A stretch of DNA of 64,000 nucleotides, from assembly GCA_947499635.1 (NCBI GenBank), contig CANMPD010000010.1, positions 1-64,000 of the forward strand, given 5' to 3'. Each line of letters begins with the position of its first letter. The first letter of the stretch is position 1. This DNA is from an uncultured Paracoccaceae bacterium (GTDB lineage Bacteria; Pseudomonadota; Alphaproteobacteria; Rhodobacterales; Rhodobacteraceae). Under the pieces are notes generated by a model. The model did no database searches. It saw only the letters and a list, made by a program, of their open reading frames with translations, and was not told where the DNA came from. Position numbers and translations under genes: made by a program. Below, in pieces: positions 9,920-59,023 of the stretch.

Positions 9920-10384
9920 ATGCAAATATCAAGTATCCTCGCACAACAAGCAGTACGCGTGGTAGCAGGAACTTCCAGCAAAAAACGTCTCTTTCAAGAG
10001 ATCGCTGAGATCGCTCAATCCGCCTATGATCTGACCGCAAACAGCACAATCGAAGCGTTGTTAGAACGAGAGAGCCTAGGACCTACCGGTGTCGGCCACG
10101 GCGTTGCCCTCCCTCATGCCAGATTGTCTAGCCTAGATGACGTCAAAGGGGTGTTTATCTCATTGGAGACACCTCTGGATTTCGATGCGCTTGACCGCCA
10201 GCCTGTCGATATCATTTTCGCGCTATTTGCACCCTTGAATACCGGCGCCGATCACCTCAAGGCTCTCGCACTTGTCTCACGTACACTACGCGAGCAAAGC
10301 GTTTGTACAAAGCTACGGGCCAACCCAAACCCCAACACATTATACACGATTTTAACTGACGATCCCGCGATCAAGGCCGCATAA
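9920..10384 (+). CDS. ptsN: PTS IIA-like nitrogen-regulatory protein PtsN (EIIA-Ntr)
   Basis: PtsN is the terminal phosphate acceptor of the regulatory nitrogen PTS, which controls potassium transport, nitrogen metabolism and other processes by protein binding. The 154-residue protein has the PTS EIIA type 2 fold. The phosphorylated His lies in GVGHGVALPHARLSSL (about residue 66), and a second conserved segment is ALFAPLNTGADHLKALALVSR. It follows hpf, its usual partner. No NPr or EI-Ntr gene is in the window. Confidence 0.93.
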   Translation: MQISSILAQQAVRVVAGTSSKKRLFQEIAEIAQSAYDLTANSTIEALLERESLGPTGVGHGVALPHARLSSLDDVKGVFISLETPLDFDALDRQPVDIIFALFAPLNTGADHLKALALVSRTLREQSVCTKLRANPNPNTLYTILTDDPAIKAA

Positions 10385-10390
10385 TTTTGC

Positions 10391-10406
10391 AAGGCTTATA
10401 AAGCCT
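10391..10406 (+). terminator. Small hairpin between converging ptsN and sulfotransferase genes
   Basis: AGGCTT-ATA-AAGCCT forms a short 6-bp stem in the 23-bp gap between the two stop codons. With A/T-rich flanks on both sides it could end transcription weakly in both directions. Confidence 0.35.
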
Positions 10407-10407
10407 A

Positions 10408-11832
10408 TTATGTTTGCCATGCGCGAAACCCAAAGGTTACGTAATCGCGTGAATACGCAGATCTGCATTTCTCTTCTATATCGTCATCGTAGATATCACT
10501 TAATTTAGGCAGATCGTCCACGGCTTGATCCTGCTCAAAATTAGTAACTTCACAACCTAATTTCAGACACATGTAAGCTAAATCCTGATCAAGCTCATCC
10601 TCGCGTAGAATATAATCTGGCGACGCCACATCAGCAAAACCTGCTAGGGTCTGAGTTTGACTGGCCCACAAAGGTGACACAGGCATTGAGGTCTGGCCAC
10701 TTAGGTTAGCCTTGAGGAAGTTAAGAAAACACAGGAAATCCGTGCGCAGATCTGCTGCATTCAAACCCTTTTTATTTCCCGACAGCTGTGCCCCAAACTG
10801 CTGTTTGACAACCTTACGAAGTTGACCTTGCGCACCATCTTCGACTGACAATAGTGCTTGGCAAAAGATCGAATAAGCACGCGCAACAGGATGTCGTAAT
10901 ACAGTAAAACTGCGGAAATTCGGGTTGTTTTTTTTCCAGTCCCGCAGCTGCTTTTGGTTAAGGCCATCCTTCAAATCAGCAAGACTCGCCTTATCCAATG
11001 CAGCCATCCAATTTAAAATACTCTCTTTGGGTCCACCAGACATGGGCATGAATACCAAAGAGCTATGCGCGGCAGTATAATACCCACGCACCATTGGTCC
11101 CCGGCGCGGTTCAAAATTTGGGGTTCTCCCAAGATTGAAACGATCCAGCGTCGTAAGTCCCTGTTCTAATTCCTGTGGGTTGGATACTTTGGTGAGTATA
11201 GACGCTGGGTTTTGTGGTTTGAGACTCTTATCCAACCCCTCTATTTTTGCGTTTACCCCCAACCACTTTGCAAGACCGTTCATAACCTCCAGAGACTTTA
11301 AATCTTCATAGGCAAGGTAAAATGCTGTCTGGCCTGTCATCTGTAACCGGTTAAGAAGGATCACCTGGAAGGACTGTATTACAGAGAGATGATCCGCAAA
11401 TTCAGATGCATCAAAATGCACTTTCGCCTCTTTACGCTGCTTGACGTTTCCCAACTTCCACTGATTGGTTTCCTTCGCGATCTGCAAAGACACATAACTG
11501 TCTAATGGATTCCGCGTCAAAATGATCTTGGCACAACCCTCGTCCGCTAAAATGCGATCCAAAATACGTGGATCATGGTCATTGAAGTACCTAAAACCAC
11601 CCAGGACTCCGTCTTGGTCGCAGATCTTATCCAGTAGTACATTCGGGTCACTATCGCGCATCGTTTTCGACACGCCCAAAATATCATCTCGCTTAGGATA
11701 ACCAATAAAAGCAGGGTTAAACGCTTCTCCGTGACAAATGACATTATCCAAAGCGTTAATATTACTCTCTAAAAAATTGGATCCGGTTCGCATTTCCGCG
11801 AAAATAACAAAGCTGGTAAACTGTGATGACAT
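10408..11832 (-). CDS. NodH-type sulfotransferase with two sulfotransferase-like halves
   Basis: This is predicted to move sulfate from PAPS to a carbohydrate or lipid-linked glycan. The 474-residue protein shows two sulfotransferase-like halves. The N-terminal half has the 5'-phosphosulfate loop FAEMRTGSNFLES (residues 11-23) and a 3'-phosphate motif IILTRNPLDSYVSLQIA (about 103-119), resembling Stf0/NodH proteins. The C-terminal half has a P-loop-like FMPMSGGPKES and a second 3'-phosphate motif VLRHPVARAYSIF (about 313-325). No signal peptide is seen, so it should act in the cytoplasm. It is the last gene of the minus-strand glycan block, 6 bp behind the GT14-like gene. The acceptor is unknown. 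Confidence 0.78.
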   Translation of the reverse strand: MSSQFTSFVIFAEMRTGSNFLESNINALDNVICHGEAFNPAFIGYPKRDDILGVSKTMRDSDPNVLLDKICDQDGVLGGFRYFNDHDPRILDRILADEGCAKIILTRNPLDSYVSLQIAKETNQWKLGNVKQRKEAKVHFDASEFADHLSVIQSFQVILLNRLQMTGQTAFYLAYEDLKSLEVMNGLAKWLGVNAKIEGLDKSLKPQNPASILTKVSNPQELEQGLTTLDRFNLGRTPNFEPRRGPMVRGYYTAAHSSLVFMPMSGGPKESILNWMAALDKASLADLKDGLNQKQLRDWKKNNPNFRSFTVLRHPVARAYSIFCQALLSVEDGAQGQLRKVVKQQFGAQLSGNKKGLNAADLRTDFLCFLNFLKANLSGQTSMPVSPLWASQTQTLAGFADVASPDYILREDELDQDLAYMCLKLGCEVTNFEQDQAVDDLPKLSDIYDDDIEEKCRSAYSRDYVTFGFRAWQT

Positions 11833-11838
11833 GCACGC

Positions 11839-13533
11839 CTACTTGATCAAATATGATTTACGTTTGATTGCAGAAGGCGATACTCGCTCCACCGCGAAAT
11901 CTCCCATCAGATAGGGATGCATACCCTTATTTTTTAAATTTTGCAAAAACTGCCCAAAGCCATCAAGATCCACCAGCTTAGGGTATTCAAGCCGGTGCAC
12001 TAAAGAAGTTGTAGTCATTTCATCGATGATTGACGATAAATACTCTGTCGGAGCTTCAATAAACTCTGCCATCGTCCAAATACGAATCCGCGCCTTTGTA
12101 TGCCTTCGTTTTAAAATATTGAGACACTCCGCTTCAATTCGCTGCAGACGAGCTGCCTCTTGTCGTATTTCGGAGAAACTTCGATCTGATTGAAATAAGG
12201 AGACAGCCCAAGCTCCGGATATTACAAAAAGACGTGCATTCGCATCCATAGCCATAAACAAATTCGCTGTTTGAGTATCCCGTGGGCTGAATTGAAAACA
12301 CTGATGCTCGCCGCGTGTATTCCAAATTAAATTTCGCAAAAATGCCTCAGGTGCATAATCTCGCAATTTAGCACCATTCATAAGGCACCCATTTATGGCT
12401 TCTTGATCCTTTGCAAATTCCGCCTTTGCCTTTGCGAATATCCTGCCATGTACTTGCGCACCTGTTGTCTGAGACAGCCAATCTTCAAAATTTTCAAAGA
12501 CTTCGTCAAATCCATGAAAAACAGAATAAGGCTCACTGGTCTTATGTTCTTCGTCTTTGGGTCGCGGATACCGACTTTGCATATAAAGCCCAGCGCGACC
12601 ATTCAGGCGCAGTTGAGCAGCCTTCGCAAATACACGATCTATCTTCCCGGGGTTCGGTTCAGTTCGCATGGCGGTTTTATTATCTTGGCCCAAGAAGGCA
12701 TCATACAAACGATCTGCTTGCGGCCAGATTTTTCGCGCAACAAAGCAATCTGAGCGACGCAGCAATTGCAAGTGATCATCATAAAACACATGTGGCTTGC
12801 CTTGAAAATCAAACTTGGACAGTGTCAAAGATCGGCTTTCAATGACATTCCCATATCGACGTGCCAGCGTTTGAAAATAACTCTCATCGGGAATCCAAAC
12901 CCTACGAAAATATGCGTCAACACGTGGCCTCATATTGTTTTCAAGGATATGGGTCAGTGTTTTACGAGTAAGACACCACCATTGGCTACCCATATGAGGA
13001 GACAAGCCTTCAGGTATTTTACGTTTTACTTTTAACAATCTTTGCAAACGCACATACCCATCAAAAAGCGCCCGCTGCCGTTTCCATGAGAATGGAAACC
13101 GCAATGAAAAGCGCTCCTCCCCAAGGCCGCCAGTAATCCAGGGCACATCCGCAATTGTAGCGCTTTCAATGAAATCCGTTTCTGGTCGCTCTGCAAGATA
13201 TGAGACAAGCTCCTTCACCGGGCGCAGAGGCAAACATGATCCAGAGGTTAGATATACATGCTGGACATCTATAAATTCATCCAACATCAATTGCGTCGCG
13301 GTTTGAGAGGCTGCCACTAAGCCCCAACTTCCCCACTCACACCGATGACGCTGAGAAAACCGGACCAATGACATGTCACTCAGGCCGTCTTGGAACGCGC
13401 TATAGGTCTTCTCATCTACAGATTTATCAACATGTATAACGACCGGACAGCCAGACGCCATCCAATGGCGCGCCACCTGTTCGGCACGATGCAGGGCCGT
13501 ATGCGCGAGCATAACAATCCCCAAACGGCTCAT
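11839..13533 (-). CDS. Core-2/I-branching-like (GT14) glycosyltransferase with extra C-terminal domain
   Basis: The N-terminal 280 residues resemble beta-1,6-N-acetylglucosaminyltransferases of family GT14. Visible segments are IVMLAHTALHRAEQVARHW, VIHVDKSVDEKTY, FSQRHRCEWGSWGLV, VYLTSGSCLPLRPV, GSQWWCLTR and VWIPDESYFQTL. The remaining roughly 280 residues form a separate domain that I do not recognise. The start is the ATG at 13533, overlapping the preceding stop by ATGA; the longer frame would run 26 codons into that gene. This gives 564 residues. It lies between a GT2-type gene and the sulfotransferase, suggesting a role in one glycan pathway. Confidence 0.78.
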   Translation of the reverse strand: MSRLGIVMLAHTALHRAEQVARHWMASGCPVVIHVDKSVDEKTYSAFQDGLSDMSLVRFSQRHRCEWGSWGLVAASQTATQLMLDEFIDVQHVYLTSGSCLPLRPVKELVSYLAERPETDFIESATIADVPWITGGLGEERFSLRFPFSWKRQRALFDGYVRLQRLLKVKRKIPEGLSPHMGSQWWCLTRKTLTHILENNMRPRVDAYFRRVWIPDESYFQTLARRYGNVIESRSLTLSKFDFQGKPHVFYDDHLQLLRRSDCFVARKIWPQADRLYDAFLGQDNKTAMRTEPNPGKIDRVFAKAAQLRLNGRAGLYMQSRYPRPKDEEHKTSEPYSVFHGFDEVFENFEDWLSQTTGAQVHGRIFAKAKAEFAKDQEAINGCLMNGAKLRDYAPEAFLRNLIWNTRGEHQCFQFSPRDTQTANLFMAMDANARLFVISGAWAVSLFQSDRSFSEIRQEAARLQRIEAECLNILKRRHTKARIRIWTMAEFIEAPTEYLSSIIDEMTTTSLVHRLEYPKLVDLDGFGQFLQNLKNKGMHPYLMGDFAVERVSPSAIKRKSYLIK

Positions 13534-14540
13534 GTCCAATCCCCTTTGGACATAAGACCCAAAACCTCGAGTTGACGCCAATTGATATAGCGTTCGCTCC
13601 ATTTGCACCATAATTCAGGATGATTGTTGATCTGCTGTGAATAAGCTATGTATTCTTGCGAGTTGGCATAGTGTTCCCCCCGTGCCAACTCTTCTGCTGC
13701 TTTACTCCCAAACGTATCAAGGAATTTTGTGTGCAACAGCAAGCCGCTTGCATTTTCCCCGCCCTGACTATCGTACACTTTATTCAATCCACGTGGTAAA
13801 ATAGCATGGACGGAACTGACGTAAGCATACCCCCGCTTCCATCTTACCAAAGGGATTTTATTCAAAGCAGGCGCCTTGTTTGGGCGATCTTTAAAGAACA
13901 TCCGCGCGCGTGGTCCGCCTTGGATCCATAAATTTCCATATTCATGGTTCTGCTTGCACGTATAGTTACCGCTGTCGAACCAAGGCGTGACCTCAAGCGG
14001 ATCTTGACCCGATTGATAAGGTGCATCGTCTAACCTACCCTTTCCATACATATCCAACAGCATTGCAGAAAAGCTCGGGATATCTGACGCGTGTAACCAA
14101 TCTGTCAAAGCACGTAGTGGACGTGTATCGCAAAACGGGTAGATAAAAAACTCATCCGGATCGACCACCAATACCCAATGATCATGACCATACTTGTGCA
14201 ACAGGTAATTAACCCAATCCATGCCAAAGCTTGCGCGTTTATAACTGCCCCGCGTATGCCAAATCGACACATCTTCCATCGCGCTCAAATAAGCCTGTGC
14301 GCCATCGCTTGAATCATTATCGATAAACAAGAAATGGTCGACACCCAGATCGCGATAGTACTGCAAGAAATATGGTAGACGGATTTTCTCGTTCCGGAAT
14401 GTGCAAACCAGAATAATATCAGATTTACTTATACGAGCCGTGTTATTTTGCACTACGTTAAGCTCGTAGGATTTACGAAATGCACGAACCACTTTTCGTT
14501 TCCGCCTTAGGCGCATTTTGTATGAATGCCAGTACCGCAC
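13530..14540 (-). CDS. Glycosyltransferase family 2-type protein (first of a paralogous pair)
   Basis: The 336-residue protein has a basic N-terminus (about residues 1-25) followed by a GT-A fold. The opening segment is DIILVCTFRNEKIRLPYFLQ, then HFLFIDNDSSDGAQAYL and the metal-binding motif LVVDPDEFFIYPF (DPDEF). Conserved downstream segments are GPRARMFFKDRPNKAPALNK and GLLLHTKFLDTF. It belongs to the Glyco_tranf_2_4/GT92-like group. It is clearly related to the 341-residue protein encoded upstream (14630-15655), so the two are tandem duplicates that have diverged. It is coupled to the next gene by a 4-bp overlap. Donor and acceptor are unknown. Confidence 0.8.
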   Translation of the reverse strand: MRYWHSYKMRLRRKRKVVRAFRKSYELNVVQNNTARISKSDIILVCTFRNEKIRLPYFLQYYRDLGVDHFLFIDNDSSDGAQAYLSAMEDVSIWHTRGSYKRASFGMDWVNYLLHKYGHDHWVLVVDPDEFFIYPFCDTRPLRALTDWLHASDIPSFSAMLLDMYGKGRLDDAPYQSGQDPLEVTPWFDSGNYTCKQNHEYGNLWIQGGPRARMFFKDRPNKAPALNKIPLVRWKRGYAYVSSVHAILPRGLNKVYDSQGGENASGLLLHTKFLDTFGSKAAEELARGEHYANSQEYIAYSQQINNHPELWCKWSERYINWRQLEVLGLMSKGDWT

Positions 14541-14629
14541 AGATCACCATCGTATCATCCTGCGCACGTTATTTCAGCCCGCATTCGTTTCAGCTAATAT
14601 GTCACTCCCATTGTTAGTAAACAATGAAT

Positions 14630-15655
14630 TTACCAATTTCCGCGCGTCATTAAGCCAAGAGATTCCAGTTGTTCCCAGCTGCCATCGTATTGTTTTGAAG
14701 ATATGTCCCACAAATCAGGATTGGCGAGGATCTGATCATAATAAGTATCGTACCGCTCAGAATGTGTGAAATGCTCTCGACGTTGTTTCTCTTCATTTGA
14801 TTTTTCAATAACTTGATCGAGAAACTTGCTATGCAAGAACACACCAGTCGGCAGTTCGTCACGGACATCAAACACCCAATTAAGTTGAGTGGGCAAAACT
14901 ATATGGGTGGAGCTAACATAGGCATATCGGCGTGACCAACGCACCAAAGGAATCTTATGCAAATGTGGCGCGTGCTCAGGGCGTTCTTGGAAAAAGACCC
15001 TACGTCGTGGACCTCCTCGAATTGAGACGTGTTCATACCGCGGCAAGTATTCCCAAGTGTATCCATTAGCATCAAACCAATCCAACGTTTGAAATGGATC
15101 TTGCCCCGCTTCATAGCTCTGCAAACCGATTGGCCCTTTGGGGTACATATCCAACATCAACACGCCAAACGCGCGATGCCCATGTGTATCCAGCCAGTTG
15201 GTTAAATCACAAAGATCCCGAGTATCATCATACGCAAAACGCAAAATTTCATCTGCGTCAGCCGTCAAACACCAGTGCCCATGACCATATCTCATCTGCA
15301 GATACGTTAACCAATCTACACCAAAACGCGTAGCTTTATAACTCTCGTTAGATTTCCAAAACGAAACATCCGGCTGCTTGGTCAAATACTCAACGGTTCC
15401 GTCATCACTGCCATTATCCACAATAAAAAAATGGGCCACACCTAAACGACGATAATGCGCCAGAAAGAAAGGCAGCCTTTGCCGCTCATTACGTATGGTG
15501 GAAAAGCATAAAATTCCATTCCGAGAGATCGTATCAGTACGATTCACACACGAAATGAGGTTTTTCCTTGAACGTATTGCCCGCCACAGAAGTTTGCGTC
15601 GTTTCCAACGCAAACGGTATGCGGCGGACCAAGGTATTTTTGTTGGAGCAGCCAA
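14630..15655 (-). CDS. Glycosyltransferase family 2-type protein (second of the pair)
   Basis: The 341-residue protein parallels its neighbour segment by segment: GILCFSTIRNERQRLPFFLA, HFFIVDNGSDDGTVEYL, the DxD-type motif LTADADEILRFAY, GPRRRVFFQERPEHAPHLHK and GVFLHSKFLDQV. The start is a TTG directly after the galE stop (TAG-TTG) with GAGAG nearby. No ATG occurs early in the frame, so the start is less certain than the gene. Its position behind galE suggests UDP-galactose or UDP-glucose as donor, but nothing in the sequence proves it. Confidence 0.78.
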   Translation of the reverse strand: MAAPTKIPWSAAYRLRWKRRKLLWRAIRSRKNLISCVNRTDTISRNGILCFSTIRNERQRLPFFLAHYRRLGVAHFFIVDNGSDDGTVEYLTKQPDVSFWKSNESYKATRFGVDWLTYLQMRYGHGHWCLTADADEILRFAYDDTRDLCDLTNWLDTHGHRAFGVLMLDMYPKGPIGLQSYEAGQDPFQTLDWFDANGYTWEYLPRYEHVSIRGGPRRRVFFQERPEHAPHLHKIPLVRWSRRYAYVSSTHIVLPTQLNWVFDVRDELPTGVFLHSKFLDQVIEKSNEEKQRREHFTHSERYDTYYDQILANPDLWDISSKQYDGSWEQLESLGLMTRGNW

Positions 15656-16639
15656 CTAACTCTCGTAATGCCCCGTTTTATGCCACTGCCAAGCATCACC
15701 AATCATTTGCTTAAGTGTGGAACGCTCAGGAGACCAACCCAACTCCTCACCCGCACGCGTAGAGCCCGATACCAATTTAGTACAATCGCCGGCACGACGT
15801 GCTCCAATCGTGTAAGGGACATCCATATTCGCAACGGTGCGAGAATGATCAATAACTTCCATTACAGAAAAACCACTACCTGTGCCTAGGTTGAACACGC
15901 GACTACCTTTTTTTTCCTCTAACCATTTCAAACCTAAAACATGGGCATCGACCAGATCACAGACATGTACATAATCGCGAATGCAGGTTCCGTCTGGCGT
16001 GTCATAATCCGTTCCAAATACCGTCAAAGCATCTCGTTCGCCTTTAATCGCTTGCAGCATCAATGGAATCAAATGAGTTTCCGGTTGGTGAAATTCACCC
16101 ACTTCGGCCTCAGGATCGGCACCAGCGACGTTAAAATATCGAAAAATCACCGACTGCAGCCCGTCTGATACACCAAAATCTTTGAGAATATCTTCGACCG
16201 CACGCTTAGACGCACCATAGGCGTTCAATGGGACTTGTGGCGTATTTTCATCCAAGACGACGTTATCATGCTCACCATATGTGGCGCAGGTTGAAGAAAA
16301 TACAAAATTCAAACAGCCTGCAGCCACTGCAGCTTCAATCAAGCACAATGATCCACCGACATTATTGGCCCAGTATTTTCCAGGTTGGCTCATCGCTTCG
16401 CCAACTTGGCTTAACGCCGCGAAATGCATAACCGCAACGGGATTATATGTTGCAAAAACCTCATCCAATCGCGCGCGATCAGTTAAATCACCCCGTTCGA
16501 AGGGCCCAAATTTTACTGCGTCACTCCAGCCTGTAATAAGATTGTCATAGGTTACAGGTGTGTACCCTGCCATCTTGAGAGCTTTACATGCATGAGAGCC
16601 AATGTATCCTGCGCCCCCAGTAACAAGAACATTGCCCAT
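15656..16639 (-). CDS. galE: UDP-glucose 4-epimerase GalE
   Basis: GalE interconverts UDP-glucose and UDP-galactose using bound NAD. The 327-residue short-chain dehydrogenase-type protein begins MGNVLVTGGAGYIGSHACKAL with the GxxGxxG NAD loop. It shows the catalytic Ser/Tyr-x3-Lys region (FSSTCATYGEH ... NAYGASKRAVEDI) and RYFNVAGAD. It starts a minus-strand series of glycosyltransferases and is separated from galU upstream by an intrinsic terminator. It may therefore have its own promoter, or depend on read-through. Confidence 0.94.
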   Translation of the reverse strand: MGNVLVTGGAGYIGSHACKALKMAGYTPVTYDNLITGWSDAVKFGPFERGDLTDRARLDEVFATYNPVAVMHFAALSQVGEAMSQPGKYWANNVGGSLCLIEAAVAAGCLNFVFSSTCATYGEHDNVVLDENTPQVPLNAYGASKRAVEDILKDFGVSDGLQSVIFRYFNVAGADPEAEVGEFHQPETHLIPLMLQAIKGERDALTVFGTDYDTPDGTCIRDYVHVCDLVDAHVLGLKWLEEKKGSRVFNLGTGSGFSVMEVIDHSRTVANMDVPYTIGARRAGDCTKLVSGSTRAGEELGWSPERSTLKQMIGDAWQWHKTGHYES

Positions 16640-16675
16640 AAACCGCTCCTAAATCTAGAATAGTCGACATATCCC

Positions 16676-16706
16676 AAAAAAAAAGCCCCCTGTTAAGGGG
16701 GCTTTT
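16676..16706 (-). terminator. Intrinsic terminator behind galU
   Basis: On the minus strand AAAAGCCCCC and GGGGGCTTTT form a 10-bp stem around TTAACA, followed by a run of about nine T residues. It lies 28 bp behind the galU stop and just ahead of galE, and is a textbook intrinsic terminator. Confidence 0.9.
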
Positions 16707-16733
16707 ATAATACAACCTTTGATATTCGCGAAA

Positions 16734-17627
16734 TTATTCAGCTGCGCGGCTAACCTGGGTGATATCTGTAATATACTCCATCAAGTCTTCACGCAGTTCT
16801 TCACGCGCCAGAGCAAACGCAACGGTCGCCTGCAGGAAGCCTGCTTTAGATCCGCAATCAAAACGTTGACCCTTGAAACGATATCCATAAACAGGAGTAT
16901 CCTGCGCGATATCCTGTGCGATCGCATCAGTTAGCTGTATCTCGCCACCGGCGCCTTGCTTCATCTCATTAAGGTTACGCAAAACAGACGGAGCAAGAAC
17001 ATAACGACCAATAACTGCAAGGTTAGACGGTGCATCTTCAGCTTTGGGTTTTTCAACCATGCCATTTACGGACACGACCGAACCCATGTCTTCTTTAACA
17101 TCCAAAACACCGTAGGATGATGTCTTTTCCGGAGCAACTTCCATAGCAGCAACCATGTTACCGCCGGTCTCTTCGTAAGCTTCAATCATTTGCTTGAGGC
17201 ATGGCTTTTCAGCTGCAATCACATCGTCGGGCAACATAACCGCAAAAGGTTCATTCCCAATCAAACGACGTGCACACCAAACCGCATGACCAAGGCCCAG
17301 CGCCTTATGTTGACGAATATATGCAATCGCACCGGAATCCATATTGGTGTCTTGAAGCGTGGCAAGAAGGTCATCTTTACCCTTCTTGCGCAATTCCTGC
17401 TCAAGATTAGGAGAGTGATCAAAATAATCTTCTAATGCACCTTTGCCGCGCGATGTAACAAAAATAAATTCTTTAATACCAGCCTCACGCGCCTCGTCGA
17501 TCGCGTACTGAACCAAAGGACGGTCGACCAGCGTCATAATTTCCTTCGGAACAGATTTTGTTGCAGGAAGGAAGCGCGTGCCTAGGCCTGCAACCGGGAA
17601 AATAGCTTTGGTGACTTTATTACGCAT
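16734..17627 (-). CDS. galU: UTP-glucose-1-phosphate uridylyltransferase GalU
   Basis: GalU makes UDP-glucose from UTP and glucose-1-phosphate, the precursor for galE and for many glycans. The 297-residue protein starts at the ATG at 17627 with TTGAGAGA upstream. The TTG four codons earlier is itself part of that ribosome-binding site. Motifs include the nucleotide loop FPVAGLGTRFLPATKSVPKE, VDRPLVQYAIDEA, AVMLPDDVIAA and the C-terminal GYRFKGQRFDCGSKAGFLQA. A terminator follows. It supplies the sugar nucleotide needed by the glycan block downstream. Confidence 0.95.
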   Translation of the reverse strand: MRNKVTKAIFPVAGLGTRFLPATKSVPKEIMTLVDRPLVQYAIDEAREAGIKEFIFVTSRGKGALEDYFDHSPNLEQELRKKGKDDLLATLQDTNMDSGAIAYIRQHKALGLGHAVWCARRLIGNEPFAVMLPDDVIAAEKPCLKQMIEAYEETGGNMVAAMEVAPEKTSSYGVLDVKEDMGSVVSVNGMVEKPKAEDAPSNLAVIGRYVLAPSVLRNLNEMKQGAGGEIQLTDAIAQDIAQDTPVYGYRFKGQRFDCGSKAGFLQATVAFALAREELREDLMEYITDITQVSRAAE

Positions 17628-17958
17628 TTGTTCTCTCAACTTTCCGACAAATCCACAAAGTAGGTTGCCGTGGCTCTATGCCATTGTTTTAAACCATCCA
17701 ACTCGGTAACTTTTCTGGTTGTTATGAACACAACACAAAGATGTTTCATATATGGACACTAGCATAAGTAAATAAAAAGTTACCTAGGGTTTTTTTACAA
17801 ACTAATTCCCATTACATCCCCAGTGACTTATTTTCTGGCAGATCATTAGGGCTGTACAACCTTATCACACCTTTAAACCAACCACATTTGGCAGTCGCAC
17901 AGCCTTAACACACCAAGAATCAGCTCACCGAAAATCTGTTTCGATAATGCGCTTGATT
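17628..17958 (-). other. Gene-free stretch between the CysQ-like gene and galU
   Basis: About 330 A/T-rich bases without a credible reading frame or clear hairpin. It should contain the galU promoter and the end of the upstream transcript. I could not pick a convincing -35/-10 pair. Confidence 0.4.
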
Positions 17959-18756
17959 TCAGGCATTTTTAAGAAGCACTGCGGGAGAATAAGCGATAAA
18001 GAACGGATTAGCATATCCCTCTTTACCGTATACAAGAGGCGCGTGCGTATCAAAACGAACAACTGCCCCTCCAGCACCTGTTAGCACTGCGTGACCTGCA
18101 GCGGTATCCCATTCCATTGTACGACCGACGCGCGGATATAGATCAGCCTCGCCAGTTGCGACCAAACAGAACTTAAGTGACGATCCTGCAGACTTTGTAT
18201 CTTTTACAGCATATTTGTTAATATAATCGTCTGTCGCCTGATCTCTGTGAGACTTTGACGCGACAATCATCAAAGCTTCATTATCACTTTGCGCCACACG
18301 AATTGGTTTGACCTCACCGATCATCGCCTCATCAAACGGCCCTAACTCTTCCACCGAGCTTCCATCAGCTAAGGTAAAGAACATACGCTCGCGTGCTGGG
18401 GCGTACACCACACCGCGTGTTGGCATTCCATTTTCCACCAGTGCGATATTCACAGTGAAATCGCCGCGACGGTTGATGAATTCTTTAGTCCCATCCAACG
18501 GGTCGACAATCAAAAATGTCTCGCCCTTTTCTTTGTGAGACTCGGCCTGCTCTTCCGTTACCAACATCACATCGGGAAAGGCGGCACGTAAACCAGCAGA
18601 GATCAGCGCATCCGCCGCTTCATCTGCCGCCGTCACAGGGCTATCGTCAGATTTCACTTTGACACCAAAATCGTCGGAATTGTAAATTTCCATAATTTTT
18701 TCGCCAGCTTGCAACGAAAGACGACGCATAACATCCGTAAGCAGTTGATAATCCAA
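17959..18756 (-). CDS. cysQ: 3'(2'),5'-bisphosphate nucleotidase, CysQ-like
   Basis: This inositol monophosphatase-family enzyme is expected to hydrolyse 3'-phosphoadenosine 5'-phosphate (PAP), the by-product of PAPS-using sulfotransferases, to AMP. I chose the TTG at 18756 with GGAG seven bases upstream, giving 265 residues, the family length. The longest frame would overlap the divergent permease gene. Metal-binding motifs are VTEEQAE (residues about 81-87), FLIVDPLDGTKEFINRRGDF and MEWDTAAGHAVLTGAGG. Its position near a sulfotransferase makes the PAP role sensible, though CysQ also serves general sulfate assimilation. Confidence 0.88.
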   Translation of the reverse strand: MDYQLLTDVMRRLSLQAGEKIMEIYNSDDFGVKVKSDDSPVTAADEAADALISAGLRAAFPDVMLVTEEQAESHKEKGETFLIVDPLDGTKEFINRRGDFTVNIALVENGMPTRGVVYAPARERMFFTLADGSSVEELGPFDEAMIGEVKPIRVAQSDNEALMIVASKSHRDQATDDYINKYAVKDTKSAGSSLKFCLVATGEADLYPRVGRTMEWDTAAGHAVLTGAGGAVVRFDTHAPLVYGKEGYANPFFIAYSPAVLLKNA

Positions 18757-18875
18757 TGTAGTCTCCAGACAGTAAGGTTCATTGCACGATTGATCTATGC
18801 TCCTTATGATCGGTTGGAAATAGATCATCAAGAATTCTGTACTATAAACCGATAGATCATCAGGAAACTTAGACC

Positions 18876-19700
18876 GTGTTTCAGTACCGTACCGATAAAT
18901 CAACATTTTCTCGCTTCACCACCATAAGTGAAGTCGTGTTCCATTCGGTCGTACGCAGCGTGCGATCTACTCATAACAATGCGGTCATCGCAATCTTACA
19001 AAACCTCGTGCAGTCTGTGATGTTTGTCGCGATCTTTTACTTTATGATGACCATTCTGCCTGGTGGCCGTAGCAACGCGGTACGCGGCGATTTTTTGCTG
19101 TTCATGATGACCGGCGTGTTCATGTTTATGATGCATACCAAAACAATGGGTGCGGTTTTAGGGGCTGACGGCCCCGCCAGCCCCATGATGCAACATGCGC
19201 CGATGAATAGCACTATCGCGATTATCTCTGCTGCTCTTGGTGAACTTTATCTGCAAGTAATCAGTATGTTAGTCATATTATTCATCTACCATACTGCATT
19301 CAAACCCATCACAATAGAAGAACCAGTTCAGGCTTTTGGAATGTTCTTATTAGCCTGGGCCAGCGGCGGTGCAATTGGGTTACTACTATATGTGATCAAA
19401 CCCTGGATGCCCGGAGCCGTTAAAATAATATCTATGGTCTACATGAGATCTAATATGATCTTTTCTGGCAAGATGGTTCTAGCCGGGACATTGCCCGGAT
19501 ACGTACTGCCTTTTTTCACTTGGAACCCACTGTTTCATACGATTGATCAGGCGCGTGGCCATGTTTTTATCAACTACAATGCATCAGTGACCAATTGGCA
19601 CTACACAGCATGGCTTGCCATTATCTTTTTCGTTCTTGGACTAATGGGCGAATTTTATACGCGGCGCATGGCATCACTTAGTTGGGATGCTCGGCGGTGA
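18876..19700 (+). CDS. ABC-2 type polysaccharide export permease without ATPase partner
   Basis: The 274-residue membrane protein resembles the KpsM/Wzm-type permeases that export capsular or O-antigen polysaccharide. It has a cytoplasmic N-terminus, about six transmembrane segments (approximately 35-60, 70-90, 112-140, 150-168, 200-215, 240-262) and the family's FFTWNPLFHTIDQARGHVF near the last loop. It starts with GTG. It is divergent from the CysQ-like gene and convergent with alkB. No ATP-binding partner gene lies beside it, so it must pair with a subunit encoded elsewhere. The substrate cannot be read from sequence. Confidence 0.82.
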   Translation: MFQYRTDKSTFSRFTTISEVVFHSVVRSVRSTHNNAVIAILQNLVQSVMFVAIFYFMMTILPGGRSNAVRGDFLLFMMTGVFMFMMHTKTMGAVLGADGPASPMMQHAPMNSTIAIISAALGELYLQVISMLVILFIYHTAFKPITIEEPVQAFGMFLLAWASGGAIGLLLYVIKPWMPGAVKIISMVYMRSNMIFSGKMVLAGTLPGYVLPFFTWNPLFHTIDQARGHVFINYNASVTNWHYTAWLAIIFFVLGLMGEFYTRRMASLSWDARR

Positions 19701-57311: not shown

Positions 57312-57755
57312 ATGATACGCCGTTTTGGTCAATCACCACGTTCAGATCAAACCTATCGTCTAAGGCCAGGCGCATATGCCATACTCCCAAGGGATCAAAA
57401 GCTTTTACTAACCCGTCAATCCGCGCCTGTAGTCGACATACAGTTGCCAGGTGGTGGAATAGATCCCGGAGAATCAGCCATTATCGCGCTTCATCGAGAG
57501 GTCTACGAGGAAACAGGCTATAAAATTTCATCCCCCCGTCATTTTGGAACATTCCGGCGGTTTGTCTTTATGCCCGAATATGATTTTTGGGCTGAGAAAA
57601 TATGCCATATCTTCATTGCGCGTCCCACCATATGCATGGGCGCACCCCTAGAGCCATTCCACACAGCCCTTTGGATGACGCACGATCAAGCAATTTCTAC
57701 GCTTGGGAATGCTGGTGATAAGCATTTTGTCGAACGTTTTAACTGTAACAGCTAA
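57312..57755 (+). CDS. Nudix hydrolase of unknown substrate
   Basis: The 147-residue protein has a Nudix box LPGGGIDPGESAIIALHREV with EETG, and the start RPGAYAILPRDQKLLLTRQS. The C-terminal half (GAPLEPFHTALWMTHDQAIS) is of a general Nudix type, and I cannot assign a substrate. GGGGAAG precedes the ATG. Its last 4 bp overlap the end of the converging receiver-PP2C gene. It is the third Nudix protein in the window. Confidence 0.85.
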   Translation: MIRRFGQSPRSDQTYRLRPGAYAILPRDQKLLLTRQSAPVVDIQLPGGGIDPGESAIIALHREVYEETGYKISSPRHFGTFRRFVFMPEYDFWAEKICHIFIARPTICMGAPLEPFHTALWMTHDQAISTLGNAGDKHFVERFNCNS

Positions 57756-59023
57756 GGACCTTGATACTCGAATAAAGTGGCAGAAATATCATCCTCTAAC
57801 CCCTCTCCCTTGGCCATAACCTGAGTAAGGTGCCAATAGAGGTCGTCAAGGAATTCTTGGCCATTTTGATCTGGTTTGCATTTGTGAATCAGATCAATCA
57901 ATCCCTCGGAGTCTAGCATACTGCCATCTTCCAAATGTGCTTCGGTGAAACCATCGGAATAAAGCAACAAACGGTCACCTTCTTCCATATAAAACACTTC
58001 TTGGTCGTATACGACTTCAGAGATCAAACCGATAGGAACGCCCCCTTGGCCAATAAACTCCATGGTGCCGTTTTTGCGGATTAATAATGGGTGCGGATGT
58101 CCCGCTTGAACCATTTTGACCTGCCCGGTGCGCAGGTCACAGGTACAATACGCCATGGTAAAATACTCTTCGACACCCGTATCAGCAATCAAACGGGCAT
58201 TCAAAAGACTTGCAACCTCTTCAGGTGGCCGCAGCGCATAGAAGCTGTTGAACTTCTTTTCCATTCCGACATTCTGGTCGAAATAAGTCGATGACAAATA
58301 CCCCCCCAGACGCGCCGTCATCATGGCCGATGTAATCCCATGGCCAGATACGTCGATGGAATAAAAGCCAACACGATTTACACCAGGAGAAAACATTCCA
58401 ACCAAATCGCCCCCGATGTGACCACATGGTTTTAGAAGCAAGCTCACTTCTGATGATCCAAAATTGCGAGACAGTTCAGGAACCAGAGATTCCTGAATTT
58501 TACGAGCCTGTATCAGATCCTTATCAATAGCATCATAAACACGCTGTAACTCGTCAAGTGTTTCCGAAACAATCTGGTTTTTCTGAAACAGCTCTCGCTG
58601 CATTCGTAATATACGTTCCCCTGCGGAGATACGCGCACGTAATTCGTCAGAACTGACGGGTTTGGTTAGGAAATCATCCGCGCCGGCATCCAAACCCTGT
58701 GCCACCTCGTTTTTTTCGCTCTTTGAGGTCAAAAGGATGAAGTAGCTGTAGGCATCATTGGATATGTTACGAAACGCACGGCAAAATTCGATCCCGTTCA
58801 TCCCCGGCATCATCCAGTCGCTCAAAATCAAATCAGGCAATTGTTGGCGGCAAATTTCCATCGCATCTTCACCGCTACCAGCTTCTGCAACTTGAAATCC
58901 CCATTTTTTAAGGGAGGCAACAAGAATGCGCCGCTGCAAACGGCTGTCATCTACCACTAAGACGCGCTGAATTGATCCGCTCACCGGAACCACTTCATTT
59001 TCAACTGTGCTTTCTGGAAACAC
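57752..59023 (-). CDS. Response regulator with PP2C-type serine phosphatase output (RsbU/RbaY-like)
   Basis: The 423-residue protein starts at GTG behind GAGGG. An N-terminal receiver domain (about 18-135) has phospho-acceptor Asp in DLILSDWMMPGMNGIEF, LTSKSEKNE and the Lys in DDFLTKPVS. A coiled-coil linker follows (about 140-175). The SpoIIE/PP2C domain shows GGDLVGMFSPG, VSGHGITSAMMTARLGGYLS and LLLYSDGFTEAHLEDGSML. Such proteins dephosphorylate an anti-anti-sigma factor in partner-switching systems; RbaY of Rhodobacter capsulatus has this layout. No anti-sigma or STAS gene is adjacent. It is divergent from an Hpt gene that may feed its receiver. Confidence 0.88.
   Translation of the reverse strand: MFPESTVENEVVPVSGSIQRVLVVDDSRLQRRILVASLKKWGFQVAEAGSGEDAMEICRQQLPDLILSDWMMPGMNGIEFCRAFRNISNDAYSYFILLTSKSEKNEVAQGLDAGADDFLTKPVSSDELRARISAGERILRMQRELFQKNQIVSETLDELQRVYDAIDKDLIQARKIQESLVPELSRNFGSSEVSLLLKPCGHIGGDLVGMFSPGVNRVGFYSIDVSGHGITSAMMTARLGGYLSSTYFDQNVGMEKKFNSFYALRPPEEVASLLNARLIADTGVEEYFTMAYCTCDLRTGQVKMVQAGHPHPLLIRKNGTMEFIGQGGVPIGLISEVVYDQEVFYMEEGDRLLLYSDGFTEAHLEDGSMLDSEGLIDLIHKCKPDQNGQEFLDDLYWHLTQVMAKGEGLEDDISATLFEYQGP

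Follow-up and report, generated by a model that had tools for sequence, protein, structure and literature searches.

Background

Within a capsule locus, it is usually the genes for the glycan that vary, and in group 2 capsules the glycan genes of region 2 vary between the conserved regions 1 and 3. Group III capsules are likewise described, in the available part of a report on Cobetia marina, as having variable glycan genes (region 2) between conserved regions 1 and 3 (PMC11766843). According to the same portion of that report, C. marina KMM 1449 has a sulfated capsular polysaccharide (CPS) along with kpsETMD, kpsSC, cysQ and sulfotransferase genes (PMC11766843). In Rhodobacter capsulatus, the capsule genes rcc01081-01086 are needed for the binding of gene transfer agents, as stated in the accessible text of PMC10218006. 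Here, a block of eight genes at positions 10408-19700 is described in a 64,000-nucleotide stretch of DNA (referred to as the window; contig CANMPD010000010.1, assembly GCA_947499635.1) from an uncultured member of the Rhodobacteraceae. It encodes GalU and GalE, two GT2-type glycosyltransferases (GT), a GT14 enzyme fused to the domain DUF5927, a two-domain sulfotransferase, CysQ and a KpsM-like permease of the ATP-binding cassette (ABC) type. We consider it likely, with a probability of roughly 0.7, that these genes provide the glycan-specific functions of a capsule system that occurs family-wide, has its loci scattered and depends on an ABC transporter (group 2-like). The product would be a sulfated polysaccharide or oligosaccharide linked via 3-deoxy-D-manno-oct-2-ulosonic acid (Kdo).

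Conservation of the block in Rhodobacteraceae

The block was compared among 61 relatives (37 genomes of the family, own genome included, and 24 of other families of the class) and among 120 genera of the family with one genome each. A scan of a named-genome collection gave at least 590 relatives, of which the best 80 were kept as named loci, 68 of them at full length; by their titles these are presumably Rhodobacterales genera or unclassified Alphaproteobacteria. All rows enter the counts. DUF5927 is found in 34 of the 37 family genomes and in none of the 24 genomes from other families of the class, and the GT14-DUF5927 protein is present in 99 of the 120 genera. The GT2, GT14 and sulfotransferase genes are collinear in all 30 short loci, own locus included, and the arrangement is therefore far beyond chance. 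Among 32 wide loci of relatives, the sulfotransferase, GT14 and GT2 genes occur in 32 each and kpsM, cysQ and galU in 31 each, followed by galE (25) and kdsB (20). The named loci show a comparable series: GT14 (80), GT2 (79), sulfotransferase (75), kpsM (70), cysQ (70), galU (63), galE (59), kdsB (58), GT4 (31) and an extra GT2 (29). Another 20, mostly divergent loci contain kpsM and cysQ in 15, galU in 16 and the sulfotransferase gene in 17 cases.

A comparison of gene neighborhoods had been proposed in the first-pass annotation, with separate occurrence of the genes as the outcome that would speak against a common function. The genes are mostly not separate: kpsM and cysQ accompany the GT14 gene in 31/32 wide, 70/80 named and 15/20 mostly divergent loci. 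Nine of the ten named loci without kpsM are loci of at most 15.3 kb that are cut by contig ends, and three of the five divergent loci without kpsM and cysQ are contigs of 10-12 kb. Where the flanking genes differ (L196, L051), GT2, GT14 and sulfotransferase genes are still found together. Judged by gene order, kpsM/cysQ-(kdsB)-(GT)-galU-(galE)-GT-GT2-GT14-sulfotransferase is an old syntenic unit in Rhodobacteraceae. In many relatives, kdsB (NF003950, 351 bits) and a further GT2 gene occupy the gap between cysQ and galU, and the first GT2 slot often holds a GT4-type gene. With kdsB, a gene for the supply of CMP-Kdo lies close to that of a KpsM-like permease, which points to a capsule linked via Kdo.

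Linkage and co-occurrence with capsule export genes

In a divergent genome (G021, locus L062), kpsM, cysQ, kdsB, GT2, galU, GT4, GT2, GT14-DUF5927 and sulfotransferase genes follow each other in this order, and pmm, kdsA, kpsE and kpsT lie convergently behind the sulfotransferase gene, the whole array spanning about 15 kb. In a second genome (G156, locus L203), kpsE-kpsT-dnaJ-dnaK-kpsM-cysQ precede the transferase genes, the GT14 gene and the sulfotransferase gene, so that kpsT-kpsE are two genes away from kpsM. This linkage was seen in 2 of 52 wide loci; it was looked for in 23 of them (L060-L062 and the 20 divergent loci), which makes it 2/23.

The unlinked capsule genes follow the block across the family. 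KpsS occurs in 106 of the 120 genera; it is present in 99/99 genomes with DUF5927 and missing in 14/21 without it (both 99, DUF5927 only 0, KpsS only 7, neither 14; Fisher 1.7e-13). A second, unlinked GT14 enzyme carrying DUF5928 is found in 99/120 genera and agrees with DUF5927 in 114/120 (both 96, one only 3 and 3, neither 18; Fisher 1.5e-15); both Fisher values treat genera as independent and ignore shared ancestry, which counts against the capsule interpretation. One genome each in the DUF5927 and DUF5928 listings was assigned by elimination (G160, G150). Within the 37 family genomes, a KpsE match (31-100% identity) was found in 34/34 genomes with DUF5927, while the three genomes without DUF5927 gave no KpsE in two cases and a 25% relative in one.

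Capsule genes in the genome of origin

The permease of the window had been annotated as Wzm/KpsM-like. Taken by itself it is weakly recognised, with 43 bits for the VexB model and 28 bits for the KpsM model (cut-offs 297 and 300) and 13 bits for ABC2_membrane (cut-off 26.9), and the name KpsM is used because of the synteny with kpsT/kpsE in two relatives. It is the sole match of its kind in its own genome at E <= 0.001, and no ATPase gene adjoins it. On contig C2 of the same genome (G000), kpsT-kpsE-kdsA-pmm, the last encoding a phosphohexomutase, are grouped without kpsM beside them; the KpsT-like ATPase scores 92.8 bits with the VexC model (cut-off 313) and the KpsE-type protein 186.6 bits (cut-off 437.5). 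kpsS-kpsD-kpsC form one locus on contig C4. There, PF05159 exceeds its cut-off in several pieces of a 681-residue frame and once in a 443-residue frame, KpsS reaches 240.6 bits (cut-off 600), for KpsC there was no NCBIfam match at E 1e-10, and the KpsD/Wza-like protein is supported by Poly_export (60.1 bits, cut-off 28). The gene types by which group 2 and group 3 capsule systems are recognised were all found, namely KpsC/KpsS, KpsM/KpsT, KpsE/KpsD and a CMP-Kdo supply (kdsA, kdsB). An adenosine 5'-phosphosulfate (APS) kinase is also present. The GT14-DUF5928 gene is located on contig C2 (341.7-344.3 kb; L175:5730-8262), divergent to a Sulfotransfer_2 gene, and this pair occurs in 9/10 loci, own locus included.

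Contig C14 carries a second kps-like set, which is separate and has a permease of its own, beside an RPA-type replication gene. The sole kdsB match in the genome (E <= 0.001; assembly 98% complete) is also located on C14 (L186:1498-2421 and L166), next to an SIS-CBS (kdsD/kpsF-like) gene and a Poly_export gene, and the contig has an RPA replication initiator and a ParA-like gene. Most named relatives have kdsB in the block; in this genome, an extrachromosomal replicon may encode an enzyme that is needed for lipopolysaccharide (LPS). An open reading frame (ORF; L166:10951-12225) next to the second kps-like set has a P-loop-like start (HIGTHKTGTTYLQNWL) reminiscent of sulfotransferases; it had no Pfam match at E 0.01.

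Relatives of the block proteins were also seen on plasmids. The GT14 protein is not covered to 80% by any plasmid record. Shinella plasmids encode a GT14 protein with a DUF5927 match under the cut-off (24.1 vs 27 bits); on one of them, which lies outside Rhodobacterales (L170), the GT14 gene (10004-11722) adjoins a GT2 gene; an export gene lies upstream at a distance of two genes, and about 6 kb downstream there is a sulfotransferase gene. A Paracoccus replicon carries the pair of GT14-DUF5928 and sulfotransferase genes, and KpsM is represented on plasmids only by 25% relatives in three Thioclava records.

Sulfotransferase and GT14 enzymes

The two-domain protein, initially described as a double-domain NodH-like sulfotransferase, proved to have an N-half of the Stf0/NodH type and a C-half that is barely over the Sulfotransfer_2 cut-off (23.6 vs 22 bits). 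The closest solved relative of the N-half is PDB 9vki (E 5.9e-10), named 'LPS sulfotransferase NodH', and the model of the protein (mean predicted local distance difference test score, pLDDT, 85.9) fits Stf0 (1tex) in its N-half with Z 12.7 and a root-mean-square deviation (rmsd) of 3.8 over 195 residues. M14-R-T-G-S-N19, G35-E36, R107, S115, H314-P315 and R318 are invariant in 62 sulfotransferase sequences, and the first loop of the C-half is altered (consensus LYLPIRGGPE). The Glu of the GE region corresponds to what we take to be the catalytic base of Stf0. With 5' and 3' phosphate-binding signatures and the fold in its N-half, the protein is a predicted sulfotransferase dependent on 3'-phosphoadenosine-5'-phosphosulfate (PAPS).

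For the GT14 protein, the family assignment of the first-pass annotation is borne out by Branch (PF02485, 65.2 bits vs a cut-off of 23.4), and the C-terminal domain for which it had no name is DUF5927 (PF19349). The GT14 domain model resembles C2GnT-L (Z 21.8, rmsd 3.1, 262 residues) and xylosyltransferase 1 (Z 19.5). The acidic pair D216-E217, in which E217 presumably has a role, is invariant in 51 sequences.

The domain DUF5927

DUF5927 covers residues 293-590 of the GT14 protein (463 bits; nucleotides 11842-12735). In the AlphaFold2 (AF2) model of the whole protein (mean pLDDT 73.6, predicted template modelling score 0.51), residues 331-500 of this part reach a pLDDT of 74-92 per ten-residue block and follow the order strand-helix-strand-helices-strand-helix-strand-helix-long helix-strand-helix, which equals that of the sulfotransferase N-half in its AF2 model. 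In hhalign, the DUF5927 motif VHGRIF aligns in register with the CHGEAF of the sulfotransferase at unconvincing statistics: probabilities are 1.4-3.2% and E values 0.014-0.036 against the N-half, and reversed controls are nearly as good (N-half, E 0.022 over 9 columns; GT domain, E 0.023, score 22.4 vs 22.7). Compared with 118 non-self tiles of co-located proteins, the match to the N-half ranked second (score 22.5, 80 columns, E 0.019) behind an unrelated family (23.7, 42 columns, E 0.0071). No match was found in a global alignment of DUF5927 with the N-half, and DUF5927 matched no sulfotransferase in hidden Markov model (HMM) searches of PDB sequences and Pfam. With the whole protein as query, the GT domain took up the Foldseek and VIA matches, and no solved counterpart of DUF5927 was found among them. 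The common order of strands and helices and the aligned motif are thus only suggestive of a remodelled sulfotransferase fold. No paper naming DUF5927 was found in a literature search that covered few subscription papers.

Gene models and neighboring genes

All eight genes placed at 10408-19700 in the first-pass annotation were recovered from the ORF list of the window (Table 1). GalU, GalE and CysQ score above their NCBIfam cut-offs as annotated, and the two GT2-type transferases are Glyco_tranf_2_4 proteins with 118 and 103 bits. The GT14 start was moved from 13611 to 13533, which is most likely correct because the ATG at this position forms the overlap ATGA with the stop of the GT2 gene ahead of it; the ORF opens at the matching place in 10/15 aligned GT14 homologues. 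Shorter proteins in relatives suggest that the true start of cysQ is later than called. In the called gene models, galE directly adjoins the next GT2 gene, and six bases separate the GT14 and sulfotransferase genes. Since the genes abut, overlap (ATGA) or lie six bases apart, galU through the sulfotransferase gene can be read as a single operon. kpsM and cysQ form a divergent pair.

Table 1 Features of the block in the window
Feature	Position	Strand	Remark
Two-domain sulfotransferase	10408..11832	-	N-half of Stf0/NodH type, C-half Sulfotransfer_2-like
GT14 (Branch) glycosyltransferase fused to DUF5927	11839..13533	-	Probable start 13533
Glyco_tranf_2_4 (GT2-type) glycosyltransferase, the near-invariant one	13530..14540	-	Pfam match; labelled in 79/80 named loci
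Second Glyco_tranf_2_4 glycosyltransferase	14630..15655	-	Slot taken by a GT4-type enzyme in many relatives
galE, UDP-glucose 4-epimerase	15656..16639	-	TIGR01179, 404 bits (cut-off 262)
galU, UTP-glucose-1-phosphate uridylyltransferase	16734..17639	-	TIGR01099, 344 bits (cut-off 327)
cysQ-galU gap	17640..17958	.	Site of kdsB (CMP-Kdo synthetase) and/or an extra GT2 gene in many relatives
cysQ, 3'(2'),5'-bisphosphate nucleotidase (PAP removal)	17959..18906	-	TIGR01331, 267 bits (cut-off 229)
KpsM/VexB-like ABC permease	18876..19700	+	Weak models; kpsT-kpsE linkage in L062 and L203

Beyond the end of the sulfotransferase gene follow convergent ptsN and hpf and then lptAB. Among the 32 wide loci, the ptsN/hpf/lptA flank is present in 31, and dnaK was seen in 25. 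The flank names lptA, lptB, hpf, ptsN, alkB, dnaK and dnaJ were given by eye first and then fitted by a domain search, which supported alkB only as a 2OG-Fe(II) oxygenase and lptB only as an ABC ATPase. Elsewhere in the window, a gene at 57752-59023 (minus strand) encodes a response-regulator receiver fused to a SpoIIE phosphatase domain.

Proposed pathway and alternative explanations

We infer the enzymatic steps, the sugar composition, the chain length and the sulfation of the product from the gene content. KpsS and KpsC from the other locus would build a short Kdo linker on lipid, with Kdo supplied via KdsA and KdsB, and GalU and GalE would provide UDP-glucose and UDP-galactose. The chain may then be lengthened by the GT2-type enzymes (GT2 and GT4 in relatives) and the GT14 enzyme, and the GT14-DUF5928 enzyme of the other locus probably joins in this extension. 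Sulfate would be transferred from PAPS by the two-domain sulfotransferase, by the Sulfotransfer_2 enzyme encoded beside GT14-DUF5928, or by both, and CysQ would destroy the by-product 3'-phosphoadenosine-5'-phosphate (PAP). For export, the KpsM of the block presumably pairs with the KpsT encoded at the other locus, and KpsE/KpsD would bring the product to the surface.

The view of the first-pass annotation that the genes form one surface-glycan set gains from the synteny, the kps genes elsewhere in the genome, the linkage in two relatives and the co-occurrence; the gaps in sulfotransferase, galU and galE show that the block is not fully invariant. A number of points weigh against a common capsule pathway. 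To our knowledge, no product of this block has been described. The permease, KpsT, KpsE and KpsS all stay below the curated NCBIfam cut-offs and KpsC is unmatched there, and the kps-like set on C14 means that exporters could be shared. Seven genomes have KpsS and no DUF5927, of which four are 76-82% complete, two have distant KpsS relatives (31-33%) and one (G110) is unexplained. galE is missing in 21/80 named loci; of the 17 whose block lacks galU, 12 are full length. cysQ, galU and galE are housekeeping enzymes with general roles and little proof alone, and the neighbors dnaK/dnaJ, lptAB, hpf and ptsN are equally syntenic, so that part of the synteny may reflect a stable region. The syntenic neighbors, the general roles of galU, galE and cysQ and the gaps in galU would also be expected if the genes belonged to no single pathway, galU/galE serving the general UDP-sugar supply and cysQ sulfate assimilation, with the dnaK-lptAB region holding them together. 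We see a slim chance of this, as the kps genes and the GT14-DUF5928 gene, although unlinked, track the presence and absence of the block, and the GT2-GT14-sulfotransferase trio stays intact where the flanks differ.

The sulfotransferase gene is absent from its slot in 5/80 named loci (L114, L121, L129, L132 and L145), where ptsN directly follows GT14-DUF5927 and the rest of the block is kept, and was undetected in 3/20 divergent loci (L189, L190 and L202, the last a cut contig). Sulfation by this enzyme therefore cannot be universal. That the exported capsule is unsulfated and the two-domain protein a degenerate or regulatory sulfotransferase, for which the altered first loop of the C-half could also be cited, is highly improbable in view of the invariant RTGSN, GE pair and R107/S115 of the N-half and its fit to Stf0. 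It is also unlikely that the glycan is a sulfated addition to LPS (core or O-chain) instead of a capsule. Rhizobia use related enzymes for the sulfation of LPS or Nod factors, 9vki bears an LPS-related name, lptA-lptB are regular neighbors of the block and kdsB lies within it in 58/80 named loci; however, lptAB are found only beyond the convergent ptsN and hpf, pmm-kdsA-kpsE-kpsT adjoin the block in L062, and KpsS is retained in every genome with DUF5927 and mostly missing where this domain is.

Under the capsule interpretation, a bolder idea can be put forward tentatively, with the odds somewhat against it: an ancestral, near-invariant sulfated capsule glycan could be a shared surface trait of most Rhodobacteraceae, made by two GT14 enzymes, both of which have a sulfotransferase gene of their own as partner. 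In this picture, DUF5927 would be a third domain with a sulfotransferase fold, in remodelled form, and its role would be to recognise or modify the same acceptor. If true, the group would have one common sulfated glycan, with strain-specific capsules made on top. Roseobacters abound in the sea, where they associate with algae and colonise particles, and surface glycans bear on adhesion and on the binding of phages and gene transfer agents. From the family-wide conserved glycan set, a shared sulfated surface glycan is predicted; the set also places DUF5927 and DUF5928 in a testable pathway and supplies bacterial pairs of GT14 and sulfotransferase for assay.

Comparison with known systems

The literature search, which mostly did without subscription papers, gave no paper combining Rhodobacterales, sulfotransferase and capsule, none combining Rhodobacter, sulfotransferase and capsular polysaccharide, and no recognised description of the block. 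At the enzyme level, the sulfotransferase N-half has its fold and PAPS-site signatures in common with Stf0 (1tex) and the NodH-named 9vki, but here the Stf0-like half is fused to a second sulfotransferase-like half, unlike in these two proteins. Similarly, C2GnT-L and xylosyltransferase 1 have the same catalytic domain fold as the GT14 domain, whereas the protein described here adds the C-terminal DUF5927.

The R. capsulatus genes rcc01081-01086 represent a capsule of a Rhodobacterales member, as is the host of the block. An identity of the two loci was considered and rejected: by the description in the accessible text, that cluster includes lspL1, is absent from strain 37b4 and has wza/wzb/wzc-type export genes elsewhere (PMC10218006). 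The E. coli group 2 capsules (KpsC/KpsS, KpsMT-KpsED) have the exporter and Kdo-linker families in common with the system described here, as far as the available portions of the reports go (PMC10148158, PMC11041684). Unlike in E. coli group 2, the glycan genes are conserved family-wide here and are split from kpsTE and kpsSDC. The sulfated CPS cluster of Vibrio sp. KMM 8419 is similar in having kpsDME, kpsT, kpsS and several sulfotransferase genes; in the part of the report available, its authors give kpsC as absent, and the locus is strain-variable and contains O-antigen genes (PMC11641403). C. marina KMM 1449 resembles the system of the block in its kpsETMD/kpsSC export and Kdo-priming genes, cysQ, sulfotransferases and glycosyltransferases, but its cluster, as described in the accessible text, comprises about 70 genes, among them those for rhamnose and mannose pathways and for PAPS synthesis (PMC11766843), in contrast to the small conserved set with GT14-DUF5927 and galU/galE described here, which is scattered over several loci. 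On the evidence of these partly available reports, sulfated kps capsules are already known from Cobetia and Vibrio, and what is unusual in Rhodobacteraceae is the family-wide conservation of the glycan genes.

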